Part shown: positions 14,101-62,400 of the stretch, one piece after another | Layout: each line of letters opens with the position of its first letter | Numbering within the stretch: position 1 is the first letter of the stretch | NCBI GenBank assembly: GCA_037783545.1 | Contig: JBBELK010000052.1 | Coordinates: 620,001 to 684,000 of the forward strand | Direction: 5' to 3' | Source of the DNA: Henricia sp. BOLD:AAB3569 | Taxonomy: Eukaryota; Echinodermata; Asteroidea; Spinulosida; Echinasteridae | Length of the DNA stretch: 64,000 bases | Notes under the pieces: generated by a model | Database searches by the model: none | The model's input: only the letters and a program-made list of their open reading frames with translations | Told to the model about the DNA's origin: nothing | Position numbers and translations under genes: made by a program

Positions 14101-17100
14101 TTCTTTACTAGGTTAGGCAAATCAGAATACATGGGTTTAGCCAAATCTTGATATTAAAAGAACTCCATATATGTACATTCTGCTTATAAATACAAGGAAA
14201 GTGTACAGGTTCCAATGTTTCCTAGTTTATTATTTTTATTCTACGTAAAAGAAACTCTGCTGTGCCATGGCACAATAACGCACCCCACCCCACCCCACTA
14301 GTACTGTACATTCCTGAAGTTCTTTGTGAAAACAGGTTGAATTAAAATAAACAAAAGAGTTAAGTGGTGTTCCCATTGGACTATTTTTTGTTAAACTCCC
14401 GTGGTTGTGCGGGAGAGTAGCAAAATTTAGTCCAATGGGGACGCACGGAGAACAAGCGTCCCTGTAAATTTACCGCGACCACGATGTAAAACTTACAGGG
14501 TAAAAGAGTCCGCGGAAACTTTCCGCTTAGCCGCGGGAGTTTTACAGGGCCCTCGAAAAGTCCAATGGGAACAGCGCCGCCCTGTAGAACTACCGCTACC
14601 GCTGTGTAAAATGCCAAATGGATGACGTCACTTCCTGCATTGTGCAATCCCACCACACATTGCACGAAAATTCTTGTTCCGTTATTATTATGTACTGTAC
14701 ATGTACGTACGTACGCACGTGTTTTTTTCATGCTCATTTCTTCGCAAATATAATGGCAAGTCTGAAGGGTTTTAACGTACGTGCGCACGTACACAGACAG
14801 CATGCACACAAGTAATAATTTCGCGCCAATGTGTACGTATCGCATGGCACGTCGAAAATCCTGTTAGGTCAAAGGTTATGTAAACTACGCCCTCAGTTGA
14901 CCACATATGGCCAGCCAAATAGCTAAATTTTCCGCTCGCGTCGTGTAAAATATATGGTAGTAGGAACGCACGGGAGATTTACAGGAAGGAATGTTTACAG
15001 GGAGTCGCGGAAAGTTCCCGCGAGGGCGCGTAAAAAGAAGTCCAATGGGAACGCGCCTTTAGAGGAGACTCCTTCAATTTCCCCGAACTACCACTCCGAT
15101 CCCCTCCATTCACACCTTTCTCTAATCTCCCCCTCCCAAAGTACAAAAATACATACATGTATGTCGGTAAGACTTAAGGCTATGCATGGTAGAAATCAAC
15201 GTGTGTATGGGTTTACGGTAGCACCACATGAATCTCTTTTGTATATGTTTGGTTCTGAAAAGAACCGGTGAGTGTGAACTCAACGTTTCGAACTCTGTTC
15301 GTCTTCAGGAGTAATGCCGGACTCGTGATGATGCAGGGCTATAAGTACTGGTTGAGGGCATTCAGTATACAATCAGGGCTCGAATTTCATGAAAAAATCT
15401 GCTAGACCACAGGGTTAGTAGCTTAAACCATTTACTGGACCGACGCTATTTTTACAAGACCAAAGCTACAAGGAACGTGGATTTACTGTTCGTTAGTTTA
15501 AAAATGCACTGGACCACTGGTCTAGTACGGTAGAGAAAGCACTAGACCGAGGCATAAATTACTGGCCTCGGTCCACCGGTCCAGTGGGTATTTCGAGCCC
15601 TGACAATGTGTGCACTGAAGCGGAATGGCTTGGGTTGAGGAGGCGTGGTTTTGGCTGTGGTGTGCTCATGGTGCGTGTCATTGTGGCAGTGGCTGTCCAG
15701 GGGGAGGGGGGGGGGGGGGGGGGGGGGGGGGGACCTACATTGTAGGGTATAGGTGACCCATCGGTTTGGTTGGTTAATAGGGAGTGCCAGATATTGATGT
15801 TGAAGCCAATGTCTTGGGGTACTGTGTTGTGCCACTAAATAATACCCACTGCACTACACATACTACATGTACATAGTATGTAATCACCTGTGTCTCAAAG
15901 GTAAAGATGTTGGAGTGGAAACAGATCCAGTTCTGGGAGATGAACATTCTTCCCTGTAGCATAATTATTTCTTTCACCAAAGCACAGGAATATGCTGTAA
16001 AACGGAAGAAATTCCCAGGAGTAAAAACGGATCTTATTTGTTGTGACCTGCCACGGCAAAATGAGCAATGTCTCCCAAATAGCAAAAACACAAAATCAGC
16101 ACCTGAAGTATATGGTATAATAATAATAATAATAATGAATATTTATATAGCGCAACGTTTCCACCCTCAAGGGCGCTCAAGGCGCTGAAATACAAATTAC
16201 ACACTATTAAAGAAAACTACATTTTGATCAAATGCCTTGTGCATGAGGTGGGTTTTGAGACATGATTTGAAAGAGGATAGTGTATCACGTACTAGATCTG
16301 ATCTGAAAGGGCAATTCATTCCAAAATCGGGGTGCTGCCACTGAGAAGGATCGACTTCCCCACGTGCGACGTGATCTTGGTTGATGGAGCAAGAGTTGAC
16401 TACTAGAGCGTAAAGTGCGTGATGGTTTGTGATAAGAGAGCAGATCCGAGATGTATAATGGAGCCATGCCATTCAATGCCTTAAAAACAATGAGCATCAT
16501 CTTGAAGATGATCCGATAATGTACATGTACGTGAAAATTTAAGTCAAAATCATCATGTTTGGGTTTTTCACATTTTTGGATCGCCTACCCGGTAGATGCC
16601 AAGGATTCAACTTGACACTTGTTCAAAAAGAGGGTTTTGAAGTCTGCTTGTGTTGGTGGTATATGGCAAAAAAACCCAAGTTTTCTCGATACTCTTCTTG
16701 GCTACAAACACGGTTCATCAATTTCTTCCGTCATTAACTTATTAAATAAAAATACAGGATACAGGAATAAAACTGGTTTCAATGGAATTAACCAGTTTTG
16801 TGTACAATGTATCTCAAAAACCCCAAAGTGGGAGACATTTCTCATTTTGCTGTGGCAGGTCACATTTTGGACCGGGACAAATGTACCGTACACGTGCCTC
16901 TAGCATGTCTAGTGTCAACTGAAATGTGTACAGATGTACATGTAAATACATGTAGATAAATACGGCATTATGGTTAATATTCAAATACAGAGCCAGCATA
17001 CAGGGTTTGCAAACACATCAAAAAGAAAAACTACAAAATTCAATTATGATTATCAACCGTCAGTGTCTCAACCTTGTGAGAAATCATAGTCACTGATAGT

Positions 17101-33206: not shown

Positions 33207-33429
33207 TGGTAGTCTCTGATGCTCACCCTAGGGTGAGTGTCAGAGGCACTCGGCAGGATTAGCCCCCACCAAACTATGTCATGGCCTAGTACGCTGTGTT
33301 ACATGTACATGTAGGTCTAGGTTGGTTTACATTCAATTCGAACGAGTTGACCGTTTGCTCCCACCCCCACCCCACCCCCATACCGCCCCCACCCACCCAC
33401 CCCCAATCAATCGGTGAAGTGGTGTTCAC

Positions 33430-34990
33430 ACTATAGAGACAGACGAGACCAGCTTCGGCCTCTTTGTCTCCGGGATCTAAGGGAGCTGTTGCTTTCATTG
33501 GCGCTGGCCATTCCTCTTTTGGGAGTTGAAGAAAGGACGGTCCCTTGACCCACTGCAAACCCATCACAGAAGCTGTCAGACCACGGCTTAGATCATCAGC
33601 AGGGTTGGTTTACTGTTTACAGATGAACCTGGAGTTTTTCCCGAAGCTCAGTGTGAAGCATCTTGGCCAAACGTGAGGCGATGAGCGCAGCCATCAATTC
33701 CAGGTGTGGGATTGTGGTCTGGCGAAGAGGAGCAACTCTAGGCTTTGCCGCAAATAGACGAACGCATGGACCATTGGGAGTGTTCCAAAGCATGTAGGCG
33801 ACAGCACCATAGGCGGTAAAACGTGCATCTGCTAAAACATGCAACTCCGGATCCAGAACGCCGATTGTATCTGCCGGCTTAACGCTTCTGGGCACGTTTA
33901 GCACCTCAACTTCTTAAGTTTCCTTGGATCTTCAAACAGCTTGGTCCACAATTCCACGTGATCTTTCGGAAGTTCGTTTTCCCATCCTAATTTCAAATTT
34001 GCCCAACCGCCAGATAGCTTGCATAGCTATCCTAGCTAGCTCTGATGGTCACGGGCGTGTAGCTAACCCCAATGGGTCAAATAGCATTGATATCCTGGAC
34101 AGGACTAATATCTTTGTGAAGATCTCGGTCTCAGCGATTTCCTCCCTCATAGCGATTTTCTTCCTTGTGACAGGAGTTAGCAAACATCTCCATTGCTCTA
34201 GTTGTCTTCCTTGCACATGGCATCCAGTGGGCAGCTACAACTCGGTGCATGTTCTTACAACCAAAGTCTCAAAGTCATACAGCTTGCTCAGATCTAAACG
34301 ATACTTCGTGACGGCACTGACAAACGCCCTTGAAGTAGATACGTTTCCTGGACCAATCACAAACCACCCAAGCGGGGTCTTCTTCCCCACTGGCTCAAAT
34401 GGTAAGCCCCGTCGAACCTCCTCTTCAGCATGTAGATGGGCGTACTGGTCTCCAAGGATAAGGTCAGTCGGCCCAGCCCTATGGGATAATTCTAGATCAG
34501 AGATATGGGGAGAGGAAAGTCACCGACTGTCTAATGAAGCAACGCTAAGGACGGTACCATTGATCTCATGTGCATCTATTTCATGCTCTTCGTCTTCAGA
34601 CAATGGCGAAATCCACTTCACACGACTAAAGTTCTGCTTCAAGCGACCGCCTCCAACAACTGAAATTTCCAGTGGTTCTCCTTTACCCTGTGGACCGAGA
34701 GCTTCAGCGAAATCTCTTCGAACAATGGTGGTTGCTGCACCGCTATCTATGAGAACATTACACACATGTACCTTCCCTGACTCTTCTATTCCAGCTCTGA
34801 AAATCCCACAGCAGGCAGAATCCCGTCTCGGTCCAAGGTAGAAACGGCACCGCTATATTAGGGATGGAAGTGGATCAAGGGATGATGTACTCTTGTGAAA
34901 CCATTCTTTTCGCATTTCTTCTTGGATGTACACACTTTTCACCTTTATGGCCATGGATGAGACACGAGTAGCAGATGCAGTTGTCCTTCA
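33430..34990 (-). mobile_element. BEL/Pao LTR-retroelement fossil (internal region only)
   Basis: Minus-strand conceptual products show family signatures in the expected order: a CCHC zinc-knuckle-like stretch near 34930, an aspartic-protease-like region at about 34520-34765, and an RNase H-like region (YGAVAYMLW, IPHLELMAALIASRLAK) at about 33620-33900. No LTRs were recognised at either side. It is broken, with several breaks, and looks old. Confidence 0.75.
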
Positions 34991-37883: not shown

Positions 37884-40800
37884 ATGGCCAACTGCAGAAG
37901 GAGACGACGCTATGCTGAAAACGATCTCATGAGGTAGGCCTTTGTTATTCGATTATTTTAAATGGCCACTTTTTTCAAATAATTCCTCAAATGTATAAGA
38001 CTATAGGAAAAGATGCTGGGAAGTTATTACTATATGCCATATGATTAAAATATTGCCTATATATACTGCACGGTGAAGTTTGAGCACAAATCATTCGCCA
38101 GACGTGCCTACGGTGCTATACTATATGTGCATGACCCCTAGCCCAGATTGGACGTCGTCTTCATTGCATTACGAGTCCCCATAATGTAGTATGCGGTACG
38201 GAGTCCAACCTGGGCTACATGACCCCCAACCCCTTCGTCTCATTACAATGGCTGTATTAAAACAATACCCATACACCTACATGTATATTGATTTATAACA
38301 GGGTTCGTCGGCTATTTGTTCCCGAAGATGGCAAGAAAATTACCGTAGCCGAAGCACACGACGCTATTCGACAAGAATTTCCCAAATGCATATTTAACTA
38401 CCGTGTACTTGGTCAGTTATTTAGAGAGGCTTTTAGGGACTATAACATCAAACGCTTGAAGCCGGGGAAGACCAACAAGAACCCTGTGAGGCAGTACATG
38501 TATTACGGTGTCGTGTTGAGAACAAATCAAAATGCACAAAGCCAGGTAAGTGAAAGAGAGATGCGTAACTGTCTATAGATGTATTATGGATGTCGTCTAA
38601 AATGTGTTCGTTTAAAGGCGGTATACATGATTGGTAACCCGTTACAAATAGTTGAATTCCCCTGTATGATTGAAGGTATGCATGATTAAAACCAACCTGA
38701 GCAAAAATATGCTCCGTTCTTCGTCTAACTTTTGAGAAAACAGTAAAAACAAAAATTAAAACTGGTTTATTTTGTTTACAGTGCAGTATATTTTCCTTTC
38801 AAGGTTGCGGCTAATGGAGGTGTAGGCCTACATTTATTTAGAGAACCACCGGCCAGAGTGCTCCTACATGCAGATACAAATCGCTCGGTGGAGGAAAACA
38901 TTCATGTCAAAACCGAAGTTAGCAGAACTCTCGAAGATATGCAGAGATGCAGAATCCCCGGAATAGTTCTCCCACCGTGCTTTTACCTGAAGGGTGCAGA
39001 TTTGAAGTACACTGGCAATCAACTTGGTGGCGGATCACACGGAGCTTCTGAATTGGCAACATATCGCGGAATACAGGTAAGTTAAGGATACCTTGTTGAA
39101 TCATCTATGATAGTCGTCTATCTCTGTTCCGTACGCTGTCCTTTTTCTTTGATTTGCGATTTTGGTAAAACAACATGGTTGTAGATATCTGGTGTTGCAA
39201 TAGGGTTGGAGACTAAAAATGCTCCCTGGTGCATTATCGGTATCTGTTTTTACATATAGGCCTACAAGTACATGTAGATGTATCATACGCACGTATGGCT
39301 TAATGTTTCGGTCTGTTTTTAGAATGCAAAATTAAACTTTGCGGGAATTTTGCCCCATATTGAATTGGAGAGGCAGAATTCTAGATTTTCCAGTGCCTTC
39401 CAGGAGATGGGCGTCACGGGACTGTAACCGCAATTTACTGTTGTGAACCCAAAAGCTTTTGCGCACCTCAGCGTGTATCGACTATCGACCTTGCAAACAT
39501 GTTTCCGGCAACTGGGAGCTACTGATCAGTTGCTTAAAAGGTCGATGTTCGCGCACTTGCAACTATGGCAACTAGAAAAATCCTGGTTGCCGCGAGTTGC
39601 TCATGTTCTACTTTCTGGCAACTATAGTGTATCCAGTTGCGGTCAGTTTCGTCGATGTACGCGTACTAGCAACTGGTTGATGTCCGTTGAAGAAGTGCGT
39701 TTGATCACATATGGGGGGCACATCGGCACGGCTGATCAGTTGAGTTGCTTCCTACAGTTGCAAGGTTGATGTACACTAGGCTTTTGAGCGAAGCAACCCC
39801 ATGAGTAGAATACAGGCACTATATAGCTAACGCTAAAGGTTTTGCTTGGACAAAGATTGCATAGCAGACACGTTGTTTTAATCATCGCATAGCCAGCTGC
39901 TGTTGTACGTATTTGAGCCTGCAACATTTTGTGCATTGGCTCCAACCTCCGCGCTCTAACCTCCAGCGTTATGGTTAATTTTATTGAGGAATTTCAAATT
40001 GTCACAAAAAAACGGGTCTCCGTGCTTTCTTTTATGATAAAATTTGCAAATGAAAAGACGCGTGACGTAATACAACGGCTTAGCATCCAAAACGAAACTG
40101 CCGGTGTTAATTTGAAATTTGTCAGTTGGCTGAAGTGTAATGCAATGAGGACTGCCAACGTGGCGTTTGTGAAGCCAGAGTGGATTTACATTCAGAGCGC
40201 AACAAACCTCGCAATCTTATTCTGGCGCCGGCTGCGCCTCCAGACCCTGTTTCTTGTGATAATTGTTGTGTATGTGACTTTTTTGGTAGGTTGTGGTAAA
40301 GAAAATGATTAACGCAGATAGATTGGAAGAGAAGGAGCTCAGAGCGGCAGTGCAAAAGGAGGCTCACGTGAGGTGCCAGCTACGTCCCCACAAGAGTTTG
40401 CCATTGCTCCTTGGGTTATGCCTGGACGAGAATCCACCTTTTATTGTGTCTAGATTTTATAGTGGGCCGAATTTCATGTCGATTACCATATCCAATGCAG
40501 TGAGGGACAAGACTCTCCGTGAAAGTATTCCGTGGTTGGTAATTCTGGCTGATGGAGCAGATGCCCTCGGGGCAATACATGACAGTGGCATCATTCATTG
40601 CAATCTCAAAGGTATTTACAGGCCTATAATTACGACTTTGCAAAACACATTTTCAGGTTTACATGTATGCTTATGAGAATGGTAATAAATTTACATAACC
40701 TTCCTACAAATATTTTGAGCATTTATTTTATGCCGTTATTTGTCATTAATGGTTATCACTTTTCATGTTTTTTTTCCGCATTATATGCAGACGATAACAT

Positions 40801-41131
40801 CGTACTTCACTTTAACCTTGGAACATGGAGTCCAGTCATAATTGGTTACGGGAAGGCAGTCACTAAGGGAACAGACATTCGTGGACAAATGACAAACGAG
40901 GAAGCTGCAATATGGAGACGCAGGAACAAGTGGATAGCGCCAGAGCTTGCCTTTGACAGAGCCGTGCCCGACGAACGATCTGATGTATATTCCTTTGGTC
41001 TTGTTGCACGCCGTGTGAAAAAAAAAACGCGGATCACTGAGAAACTCCAGGAAATAGTCGAAATGTGCTTGGATAGCAATCCAGGCAAACGGCCAAGTAC
41101 TAAATACATTTGTGAGACTCTTAGGTCTTAA
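37884..41131 (+). CDS. RFX-like winged-helix / pseudokinase fusion protein, 409 aa
   Basis: Five exons: 37884-37933, 38302-38545, 38804-39076, 40290-40611, 40791-41131 (TAA). All splice sites are GT-AG and the phases close exactly (1230 nt, 410 codons). Residues about 20-90 resemble an RFX-type winged helix: LGQLFREAF, then NPVRQYMYYGVVLR, compared with KYHYYGI in RFX factors. Residues about 165-409 are a kinase fold: glycine loop LGGGSHG (172-178), VVVKK (lysines 193-194), FIVSRF hinge region, HCNLKDDN (292-299), GYG (315-317), IAPE (345-348), DVYSFG (361-366). The HRD aspartate is Asn294 and the DFG aspartate is Gly315, so phosphotransfer is unlikely. The fold is closest to tyrosine-kinase-like kinases. 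Function unknown; a DNA-binding, nuclear scaffold or signalling role is inference. Introns carry young MITEs but the frame is intact. A possible ATTAAA poly(A) signal is at 41409. Confidence 0.75.
38139..38217. mobile_element. 79-bp MITE with 9-bp target duplication (Mutator-like)
   Basis: TAGCCCAGATTGGAC and complement ends, about 20-bp inverted repeats. CATGACCCC is duplicated exactly at 38130-38138 and 38218-38226. A 9-bp duplication is the mark of MuDR/Mutator elements. It lies in the first intron of the RFX-like pseudokinase gene. Confidence 0.85.
38616..38750. mobile_element. Partial TTAA/AGGCGGTATACAT element in reverse orientation
   Basis: TTAA then AGGCGGTATACATGATTGG is followed by sequence matching the right arm of 5026-5542 in reverse (AACCAACCTGAGCAAAAA, CTTTTGAGAAAACAGT). 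It is cut off before the other end and lies in the second intron of the pseudokinase gene. Confidence 0.7.
39475..39785. mobile_element. Relative of the 28052 element (GTTGCAAGGTTGATGTACAC end)
   Basis: ATCGACCTTGCAAAC at the left and GTTGCAAGGTTGATGTACAC with TAGGCTT at the right enclose CAACTGG/CAGTTGC motifs, as in 28052-28956. It lies in the third intron of the pseudokinase gene. Confidence 0.6.
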
Positions 41132-45830: not shown

Positions 45831-46172
45831 TATAGCAAATACATGTACAAGTATACATTATAATTGTTTTATGTACTAGTATAGTGGTACGGATTATATC
45901 GCCGCCAGGGAGAAATGTGGACCGGGCACCAGTCTACGTGCTACTCACCTAAAGAGAGTGACGTCATCACGTACGTACGGTACGATCATTTTGTCATCGT
46001 GGTGCTGTTGTATTATACAGTGTTACATGTACCAGATGCTCCATAATTATTTGTCTAAAAAAGGGGTAAATTTCGTATCCTTTTTGATTTTTTGGACAGG
46101 AGACCTATAGAGTAGAGAGAGGTGTTGTGTTTAGATCATTTGTTTGGTAAATCTGCCGAAGGCCGGACAAAG

Positions 46173-49100
46173 ATGAACGGCCTAACTGTTGGCGAACTGT
46201 GCTGCTTGTTCTGCTGTCCGCCATGTCCTTCACGGATAGCGTCTAAGCTGGCGTTCCTTCCCCCCGAGCCAACCTACAGCATTGTTACGGACGAGACCGG
46301 AAGTAAATGTACACTCAACCTCACCGAACGGGCTGAATGGCAATATTCCGACCGTGAACTTGAGTCCATGGAAGTGTTCTATACCCGCAACAAGCGAGGA
46401 AACAGAACAGCATGCATGTTTGTTCGCTGTGCCTCAAACCCCAAATACACTGTTCTTTTTAGCCATGGGAATGCTGTAGACATAGGTCAAATGAGTAGCT
46501 TTTACATTGGACTTGGTTCTAGGATCAATTGCAATATTTTTAGCTATGACTACTCGGGGTACGGGGCCAGTGGTGGCAAGCCTTTGGAGAGGAACCTGTA
46601 TACAGATATTGATGCTGCTTGGCAAGCCCTTCGTTCACGCTATGGGATCAGCCCTGAAAGTATAATTCTTTATGGACAGAGTATCGGCACGGTACCTACA
46701 ATAGACCTGGCTGCAAGGTACGAGTGTGCTGCTGTCATTCTGCACTCCCCACTCATGTCAGGGATGCGAGTGGCATTCCCTGATACCAAGAAGACATGGT
46801 GGTTTGATGCATTTCCCAGGTGGGTATACATGTAGGCCTACATGTACCATGTATAGAAGAAAATAGACATTGCCAGAAACTGTTTTAATTGGAACTCCAG
46901 TAAAATAGATTGAATAATTAGCCAGTTCGGAGTCTCGACTGCGCATGCATCTCCCGACTTTGATTTGAGATAAACAAAGGCGCACCCTGTCCGTATGCAT
47001 TGTGTTTATCTCAAATGACCTTTGACACAATCCCATTGACGTTCCTTGCGCGTGCGAGATTCCGAACTGGCTTATTCTGTCGGTCGCCGCAACGTCACTT
47101 CCGGTAGGGCTGGAGTGAAAACAATGGTGTGCCTATGGTGACACTATGGTGACAAGCGAAGGAACAGAGCCGTTGTCTACGCAACACGTACACTTATCTA
47201 AGCATGAACGAATTTGTTTTCACTCCAGCCGTGGTGCTATATGCCCGTATACAAAAGCATATGACACAGGGTCAAAAAAGTGCCAGGATGTGTGACCGAC
47301 AGAATCTCTGGAACGAACAAACCGAAGTTATTGACGTCATCTTACTCAAGGGGGCGAAAGGACATGTTGCAATTGCTCGGTGGAATAGCTTTGTGTTGTT
47401 AAATCACTGTGCATCCATTATAGTCTGCACATGCACACAGCAACATGTGTTCGAACTGCTCCTTAAACAAGATGGCATAGATAAACATGAAAGGGTTTAC
47501 TGAGTAGTTTATGGTTTTTAGAACTTGTGTACAAAACAAATAAGACGGCGGGGTATCGTGGTCGAGTGGTTTGGGTCACTGACTCACAAAACTCTGGTGA
47601 AAACTCGGGTGATACCCTGCTAGAGGTTCGATACCCCACTGGGGTACCTGTGTCCTTGAGCAAGGCACTTGAACACACTTGCTCCATCCTTCGTAAGGGA
47701 TGTAAAGCCGTTGGTCCAGTGTGTTAGGTAATGCACCTATCAATGCACCTATCTTGTATGTAAATTTGAGTTTTTGTCAGATCTGCATTTACTGATACTT
47801 TTCAAAGAAAAATGTCAATGATCAACTTAGCAATTGGGTCATTCCATGTCAATTCAACAAGCTTTTGGACCTGACCATCACGGATTTAAATGAAATTTGG
47901 TGTGCTGATTGGACTCCTTGAGAAATCCTGAGAACTAAAATTTTATGTCATTCGGTCAATTAATTTTTGAGATACGGGTCAACGAACTTTTGACTAATTA
48001 CATGTAGCATGACCTGCTATGTTTGAACATGGTTTGAACAGCACATGTACTACGTGTATAACATACTGTACACAGTTACATGTTATTTACATGGTATTTA
48101 CATGTTAGCCAATGTTAAAATTATCGTAACTCAAAAACTGTAAGAGTCCCCATCCCAAATCTTTCTGGAAATGTTCCTTGTACATCGGTACCGGTATGTA
48201 CGGGTACATCTTAAGCTAACAAATAAAACAAAATTACGCATTTTTGCAAATCATGGTCAAAGGTTATAAATTCACATAACTTTTTGGTGGTACGAGATAC
48301 AATTTATAAAATGAAGGCCATTTCAAGACCTTTAAAATTATGTAAAGTTTATCTCTATAGGTCCATTACTTTTAGAGATACAACTGTCCAAACGTACCAG
48401 CAGGTCATGCTAATTAGTCAAAAGTTCGTTGACCCGTATCTCAAAAATTAATTGACCGAATGACATAAAATTTTAGTTCTCGGGGTTTCTCAAGAAGTCC
48501 AATCAGCACAACAAATTTCATTTCAGTCCGTGATGGTCAGGTCCAGAAGCTCGTTGAATTGACAAGGAATGACCCAATTCTTACCTTTCCCCCAAACCTA
48601 AAATGTGGTTCCCTTCTGTGTGTCTGCATCGACAATTATCTGCTTTTTTAAAATTCTGAACATGGTACATTTTTACTATACATGTACAATATATATTTAC
48701 CTTATATAATTATTTGCAAGGGGTAGAGAATGCTGGCCATCGTCCCACCCTAATATTTTGGCTAAAAAAAGAGAAAAAATGAAAAGATGTTTCCCACCTA
48801 ACCACTCTTAACATTTTTGACATAATATTAAAGTAAAAATTTTCTTGGCTTTATTGCCAGTACAAATATTGATCAGTGTACATGCATGTACATGTACATG
48901 GACCACAAAATCAGATCTCATAAGGTTTACAATTTGCCTGTATAGCAATGAAAATGAGTCACTGCACTGTCGTTAGTCACTGGCTTTGTAACACAGTACC
49001 ATCGTCCATGCAATGTGCACTTGCAAAAGTGTACAATGTACATGTATGTACAAAAATGTATTATATTCCAGTACATGTACATACGCACAGTATACTACTA

Positions 49101-59400: not shown

Positions 59401-62400
59401 GCCGAGTTTTGAAGAAAACAAATTACATGCACATGCACATTTGAAAAAAATTCTGACTTACCATATTTGACTGAATCTTGTAAGAGCTGAAGCTGGTGTC
59501 CAGGAAGGGACATGTTCCTCCTATCTAGACCTTCACTCTCAACCTTGGTTCCTTAGAAGAAAAATGCACAGAATCTACAGATGAATATTGTTTTTTTGTG
59601 ATTTTATAGTCCTATAATTTGAAGTTGCCCCGTACGGCAAACAAAATACACAACTTCCCTTCCTTTGCAAGTGAAAGCCTTTGGAAAGCACATTATAATG
59701 CACTAATACTGCAACTAAGGCTTAACATCTTATCCCTAGCTCAGACTCGGATCAGTTAAGATCTAAGTACTTGTACATTGAAAGTTAACATTTTTCCCTT
59801 TCATTGAGATACCTCATATATTTGCACAAATTGTAAAAACGTTTCCACAGTGTGTGATAAAAGACTCCCCACGAAAGTGTGAAAATTTTCCCCAATCTTA
59901 AAAAAAGAGGAAAGCGTGGAAACCCCTTTCGAAGATTTGTGAACTGAAAACATGTGCAAATTGTGCAAACTTATGGTCCCTACTCAAACTGCCAAACCTG
60001 TTCCGAGACAAACGACCACAAAATCAGCTCCCGACACTGCATTCCTTATTGCAGTCTGGTTGTACTGGTCGCATAAAGGGTTGTTGCATCCAGCAGCAAG
60101 TCTCTGCAATGCACCGAGACTCCGCAGGCCATCCCATGGTGTGCTTATGAATTTGGGATCAGTCTGCGGGGCATAGCTTCCAAACAGGTCTTCAGGCGAG
60201 TTGGCAAAGGGGCCTATTATCTGAATTTAAAAGAGGGGAATAATAAAACCAATTTGACTTAACCACAATTCAAACGACAACTCTTGCAAATTGTACTAGC
60301 ACACTACTAACTTTACTATATATCCAGCCCTGATCAGGCTTAAAGGCACAGGCTCATCAGCAATGCGCGCATGCCTTTGCTATGGAGCTGTGTATTTCGT
60401 GGCACGAATTTGGCGCGCGTGCATTGCTGACGAGCCTGTGCCTTTAATTACACGGCATAAAAATGCTGTTAAAATGCTCTCGTTTGCTGCACCGTGAAAT
60501 CACCCTCATGGCAGTCTCGAGACCAGCTCACAAACTTGCAAATTTGAATCCTACAAAGTATTGTCCGCTGTCAATGGACCTAAAACACAAGACGTCACGC
60601 TTTGTTTACAGTATACATGCTTTCCTATAGCCCTACGTCGTCTGGTATCCACTGTCCCATAGATTTGTGCGCATGTAAACAAACTGTCACGTCATTATGT
60701 TTTTAGGTCTATTACACAAGAACATGGTGCCAAATTTTACCATGGGTTACGGTTTTATCACAAATTAGCCTATTTCAACCCCTTTTTCTATTGGGTTTGT
60801 GTAGACCACGTACTGCACACACGTGCACACTGTCATTTTGGGAGTCAAAATTAAAGCTCTAGTGCATCATTTGCAGAATACCAAAAACACTTTTCACCCA
60901 AGATGATTATGTGGTTTTCAGTGCATTGTTTTACTCCAAATTCCCTCCCCACCACTTTTTCTGAAAGAGATGCACGTCCAATGTATGCACAAAAGAGCTA
61001 TGTGTGTATCATGCACCCTTATACAGGCACCATGACTCACGCCCCGATTGGTTTTAGTGCTGGAAAACAACATAGGGCATGGTGGGGTACATGTAGGTAA
61101 GTCGTTAAGAACCAATATTGGCTCATATGGCTGGTACTCATCCCTGGTTTCTGTGGCATGGAGTGACTAGGAGCAATGTACTCCTCCTGGATGGGATGCC
61201 AATCCATAATTTAGGTCTAGCTACCCCCAGCAACTACATGTACGTAGCTGGGTTTCCCCAACCGTATTTGCTGGTACCCATTAATACACCTGGGTGGAGA
61301 GAGACAACGTGTCTTGTCCAAGTCCTGACACAACGCGGTGCAATGGCCAGGTTTCGAACCATGGATGGACCTGTCGACCGAAGGTCCAACACGCTATCCA
61401 CTAGACCACCACGTCTCATCAGCTGGCTGGTGGGGCACTTAAAGTTTAAATGCCAGTGCTCATTTAACATTAAAATTCACTTTATAAAAAGAGTTACCTA
61501 CAGCCAGAGTATGGGCTCTTCCACCTGGCAACGTGTTCCCCTCATTTTTCAACAAGACAAATGTCTTTGCAGCAGCAAGAGATGCCAGATTTCTGTGCTG
61601 GAAGCTTTCGACTATTTCCGACGCCACGAACTTGGAGTAAGGGTTTCTCTCTGGTGGATCAAACTCCCCAAGTCTCATCCGAGTGTAGAAGAGCGGCCTG
61701 ACCAGTGACTTCAGCCGTGATTCCGTCAAATTTCCTGCCTCGACAGCATCCGTGATATTAGTGTAAACATTCTCGGCAGAGTAGCACAACTCCAGATTGC
61801 AACCGGCTTGGACACCAGCCACGGCGGTCTCCAGTGGACTGCGAGTGTATTTATGCTTGAGGAAGACATACTCTAGGGCCTTCTGGTCACTCACTACGTA
61901 CCCCTTAAAGCCAAACTGCTTGCGCAGTATGTCGGTGAGAAATCGTTTATTCACGCAAGATGGAACGCCATTGATGCTGTTGGAAGGATGCATTTTAAAA
62001 TAGCCGTAAAATAAAGTGCACCAATTTTTTTTTAGAATTGATTTAAATCCCACACGCATTATCCTAGTGTGTGTCCCAATAGACCGATCCAGTAAGCCCA
62101 GCGCCCCCAAAATATTTGTTGAATCTTGTCAAAATTTTACTATGACCCCATGTAAATTTATTTGAATTTCATGAAGTCATTACAAATAACCCTCTGAAAA
62201 CTATTGTAAATTCTTTAAAATTGGGTTTCGTTTAAAGATCGGCAAAACCGGTTATTAATTTTGTTTGAATCATAAACGGTTAACCAGTTAAACGTCCCAT
62301 CCCTACATATTGCACATATGTATCCAACATTTTTCTTGACCATCACCAATGCATAGTTCCGACCTGTCAATCAACCGAACCCGCCGACCAATCACAACAG

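Follow-up and report, generated by a model that had tools for sequence, protein, structure and literature searches.

A probable single gene in the starfish Henricia that joins a distantly RFX-like domain to a predicted TKL-type pseudokinase

The best explanation for the open frame at positions 37884-41131 (+ strand) of the window is a real, single gene that encodes an RFX-like domain, a linker, and a putative TKL-type pseudokinase; the frame and the order of its parts are read from DNA alone. The window (the whole stretch of 64,000 nucleotides that we analyzed) is part of contig C52 in a 740.7 Mb genome from Henricia sp., and our own-genome searches cover that assembly. Both domains are of known kinds. 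What is new is their union with a kinase that is predicted to be dead, and we found no earlier report of it. More specifically, the RFX-kinase layout was not found among the matches listed for open-access PMC titles and abstracts (a scope that excludes subscription journals and annotated proteomes), and no such protein was found in the accessible parts of PMC10530576, PMC2575513, and PMC6526094. Predicted proteins with this layout may already be in public databases.

The five exons, all on the + strand, join into one open frame of 409 residues plus a stop codon (1230 nt). Exon 1 (37884-37933) holds the start codon, in the context ACAATGG, and a run of five arginines (RRRRR, residues 5-9) that is a possible nuclear localization signal; its donor reads GTAGGC. 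Exon 2 (38302-38545) encodes the RFX-like domain (residues 17-98, with KRLKPGKTNKNPVRQYMYYGV), which was recognized by using hhalign against RFX DNA-binding domains and which has no Pfam match. Exon 3 (38804-39076) carries the linker and then the start of the kinase N-lobe, including the glycine loop (GGGSHG, residues 173-178). The core of the kinase is in exon 4 (40290-40611), with K193, the alpha-C glutamate E213, and an altered catalytic loop (H292-C293-N294). Exon 5 (40791-41131) adds N299, an altered DFG site (G315-Y316-G317), APE at 346-348, DVYSFG at 361, and the stop codon. All four introns start with GT and end with AG, the junction phases are 2, 0, 0, and 1, and there is no stop or frameshift across the 409 codons. 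The GC content is 0.464 in the coding sequence versus 0.397, 0.337, 0.436, and 0.291 in the introns. Re-splicing bore out the preliminary description of this gene, which had claimed an intact five-exon frame (410 codons including the stop, with all of the phases closing) and a layout in which HRD has become HCN and DFG has become GYG; the VVVKK, glycine loop, APE, and DVYSFG motifs that it listed are also present.

As for what the protein does, the most likely reading is a DNA-tethered pseudokinase adaptor, which is a prediction from sequence that we hold with a little less than even confidence. The five arginines would bring the protein into the nucleus, and the RFX-like domain would bind DNA. 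The kinase fold could then be a binding surface, or a nucleotide-dependent switch, that recruits or sequesters signaling partners, so that the pseudokinase would serve as an adaptor or would hold back a relative that is still capable of catalysis. It seems plausible that selection has favored a non-enzymatic role of the kinase. According to the accessible part of PMC4718504, IRAK2 and MLKL are signaling pseudokinases with altered HRD and DFG motifs, and IRAK2 lacks both aspartates, which is a loss that it has in common with the window kinase. If the adaptor reading is true, then placing a pseudokinase on a DNA-binding fold with sequence specificity would directly short-circuit signaling and transcription. 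It would also show how RFX domains, which are best known from the control of ciliary and MHC genes, could gain new partners in echinoderms. There might even be a lineage-specific class of DNA-tethered pseudokinases, in which an RFX-derived reader places a dead TKL kinase on chromatin, DNA itself is where a RIPK/IRAK-like signal arrives, and the catalytically able sisters are lost or unassembled; we consider this to be unlikely.

The strongest rival to the adaptor reading is that the gene is being lost: its frame still looks intact, but relaxed selection has cost it its catalysis, and it would be following two decayed relatives. We think that this could have happened but probably did not. The two relatives came from a search of the genome, which identified C245 (38% identity, E = 5.1e-6) and C504 (48% identity over 29 residues, E = 0.02). 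These are the only other loci with the RFX-like domain that were found, and both are dead, which favors decay: each contains stops or frameshifts, and the window copy is alone in keeping its frame open. C504 and C245 are 92.9% identical to each other across 602 aligned columns (33 mismatches). Among codons that differ by a single step (four two-step codons were set aside), 20 differences are non-synonymous (two of them to stop codons in C504) and 5 are synonymous, which is consistent with neutral decay of dead copies. Both loci lack an intron at the position of the exon 2/3 junction, and C504 also lacks one at the exon 3/4 junction, as would processed copies. An intact parent of the two was not found in the assembly (the four matches were C245, two pieces of C504, and the window). 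The own-genome search did not find a second haplotype or a close paralog of the window gene, either, and this too would fit with decay. On the other hand, the 409 codons are free of stops and frameshifts and all eight splice dinucleotides are kept, which speaks against decay. Also, if C504 is read through its breaks, then blastp gives a single match to residues 18-246 of the window protein (E = 5.8e-23) at 27% identity. That both domains are still recognizable at this divergence suggests long constraint on both lineages.

The match to C504 includes both parts of the protein. The RFX part (the N-terminal 100 residues) scores 44.7 bits (the maximum from 200 shuffles was 20.0), the kinase part scores 54.3 bits, and the linker scores 13.9 bits, which is meaningless alone. 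C504 keeps the RFX-like domain and the kinase in this order within one intronless stretch and ends in the N-lobe, while C245 holds the RFX-like domain, the linker, and the start of the kinase and ends at the glycine loop. Both of them end before the HRD and DFG sites and hence are silent on the aspartates of their parent. By eye, C504 ends beside a duplication and a peptide that resembles a transposase: at L023:7745-8110, a 77-base kinase stretch is repeated 289 bases apart around this peptide.

Profile-profile comparison supports a predicted, distant relationship between the N-terminal domain and the winged-helix DNA-binding domain of RFX. When we aligned three rows (the window, C245, and C504) and compared them to RFX domains, the hhalign score was 31.7 (probability 80.7%), versus a maximum of 18.8 across 200 column shuffles and 10.0 for the reversed alignment. 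A repeat with five clean RFX rows, which replaced an RFX set in which one row carried borrowed residues, gave a score of 30.4 (the maximum from 200 shuffles was 19.5), and two RFX sequences from PDB alone gave 30.3. The relation to RFX was detectable only by profile-profile comparison and with the three rows pooled (hhalign probability of 76-81% across the pooled comparisons). The window row alone scored 21.1 (shuffle maximum 20.7), and the C245 and C504 rows without the window scored 22.3 (shuffle maximum 20.0). Because these scores barely exceed the shuffles, the support for RFX comes from the three rows jointly. The 37 matched columns cover only helix 3 and the wing; the preceding half of the domain can be aligned with RFX by eye, without statistical support. 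Within the match, the domain has in common with RFX transcription factors (PF02257) the pattern G-K/Q-L-x-R-x-x-F ... RRL ... YYG, and basic residues in the wing (KRLKPGK in the window, RRLRPGK in C245 and C504) match RRLGTRG of RFX.

Unlike RFX domains, the window domain is below detection by Pfam, has a wing loop that is 5 columns longer, and is fused to a kinase. The same genome also contains canonical RFX loci (13 exon matches), and one canonical RFX domain, used as a positive control, matched PF02257 with E = 4.5e-34. PF02257 was not matched at E ≤ 10 by the 409-residue protein, by exon 2, or by the pieces from C245 and C504. Sequence and profile searches of PDB with the RFX-like domain did not return RFX, and in a search with a six-row RFX profile (with one faulty row), the window exon was absent from the matches at E ≤ 5 while C245 appeared only at E = 3.3. 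The term "RFX-like" from the preliminary description thus stands on profile-profile comparison, and no direct match to RFX appeared in Pfam (the check that it proposed), in PDB, or for the window exon with our own RFX profile.

Structure models of this domain had low confidence. AlphaFold gave a mean pLDDT of 53.8 for exon 2 as a single sequence and of 53.4 with the three-sequence alignment, and the latter model has the element order H-H-E-E. Given this low-confidence three-sequence model, Foldseek ranked RFX5 first, yet with E = 1.0; the next matches, at E = 1.0 and worse, were winged helices (Fur and forkhead) mixed with unrelated chains such as mitoribosomal proteins and PI3K. With the single-sequence model, which also had low confidence, a winged helix was not ranked first. 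Separately, we considered and rejected a viral origin: when the RFX-like alignment was used to scan viral contigs once, there were 16 pattern matches, none of which was confirmed as a relative.

Another reading is that the RFX-like domain binds protein instead of DNA, so that the product would be a cytoplasmic pseudokinase adaptor of the RIPK/IRAK type. The short extent of the RFX match fits with this, as does the presence of RIPK1 among the nearest solved kinases. But the part that does match carries the wing residues of RFX, with the basic residues kept, and given the role of the wing in RFX proteins, we find the protein-binding reading doubtful.

The kinase that the preliminary description recognized is found with Pfam. 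The protein matches PF07714 (E = 2.2e-16; the best stretch is residues 169-368, and there is a second stretch) and PF00069 (E = 6.6e-14). The C-terminal part is TKL-like: the top relatives in PDB, from the best 60 of 465 matches at E ≤ 0.01, are CTR1 and RIPK1, which we take to be TKL kinases. In contrast to RIPK1, CTR1, and the IRAK pseudokinases (including IRAK2, presumably a TKL pseudokinase), the window protein has an N-terminal RFX-like domain and has no death domain according to Pfam, which shows the kinase alone across all 409 residues. N294 and G315 are found where a canonical active kinase has the aspartates of HRD and DFG. Given the loss of both aspartates, we predict that this is a pseudokinase.

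Could the kinase, with HCN and GYG at these sites, still be active through an atypical mechanism of phosphate transfer? It does retain K193 (within VVVKK at 190), E213 (located via the alignment to CTR1), N299 in the catalytic loop, and the glycine loop (GGGSHG at 173), and the accessible part of PMC4718504 describes some kinases, such as CASK, as active though they lack canonical residues. With the catalytic aspartate and the metal-binding aspartate both gone, we consider atypical catalysis to be very unlikely. That the window instead holds two neighbors, an RFX-like gene (exons 1-2) and a kinase gene (exons 3-5) that were joined on paper, is scarcely credible, and we rejected it, as C504 carries both domains in one intronless stretch that aligns through the linker.

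The genome contains other relatives of the kinase part. Searching with exon 5 gave 10 places at E ≤ 0.01 (among 46 scored candidates), one of which is exon 5 itself; exon 4 gave 6 places at E ≤ 0.1 (among 15), of which one is itself and one is C504. We read 10 of the 13 other places (L016, L019, and L020 were left out, and a short kinase fragment on C6 was not counted). These are largely near-identical copies and represent about four kinds altogether. Relatives on C340, C162, C171, C266, C376, and others resemble the window gene around the catalytic loop and the DFG site. For example, C340 has PQIIDFGKS where the window gene has PVIIGYGKA. The catalytic-loop and DFG sites align unambiguously with the matching stretches in the relatives (IIDFGKS in C340, IIDFGQA and HCDLK in L033, IIDVGLC and HNDLK in L015). 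Where the catalytic loop is readable, 6 of 8 relatives have the aspartate and the other two (L030 and L031) have HRN; similarly, the aspartate of DFG is present in 8 of 10 relatives and absent from L030 and L031. Two kinds thus lack the aspartates: the window gene is one, and L030/L031 are the other.

The AG acceptor of exon 5 has a counterpart in the kinase exons of C340 and C162, where its codon and phase are the same. An upstream exon with the catalytic loop was not found at either locus. We scanned the flanks of the kinase relatives (1.5 kb, or up to ~8 kb for six regions) by running hmmsearch on six-frame translations, and the RFX-like domain was not found in them; only the window, C245, and C504 were above the inclusion threshold. 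Two of the relatives, L015 and L018 (on C171 and C266), are near-identical, intronless open kinase frames that lie behind long glutamine runs and have HND and IDVG. L030 and L031 (on C599 and C64) are a second kinase-like kind without the aspartates, with HRN for HRD and SGL for DFG.

Several other features lie in the window. At 33286-34852 (- strand), some 3 kb upstream of the RFX-kinase gene, are fragments that by eye resemble a BEL/Pao-type retroelement, with stretches like an aspartic protease and an RNase H. An alpha/beta hydrolase exon at 46116-46835 (+ strand; Hydrolase_4, E = 2.2e-9) resembles ABHD17 by eye. There is also a glycoside hydrolase family 3 exon at 61460-62128 (- strand; E = 5.2e-16) and a histone 3' stem-loop at 15226-15271 (- strand; 35.3 bits in Rfam, versus a cutoff of 34). 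Elsewhere in the assembly, the mitochondrial contig has 16,221 bases, and the best reading of its cox1 takes AAA as Asn and both AGA and AGG as Ser, which is the echinoderm code (8 AAA, 5 AGA, and 1 AGG codons, compared by eye to cox1 motifs). The genome is that of an echinoderm and not of a vertebrate, the group to which the preliminary description had referred. Naming the mitochondrial genes by eye from their translations, we found nad1 and nad2 on the strand opposite to cox1, which is an inversion that we take to be a starfish trait.
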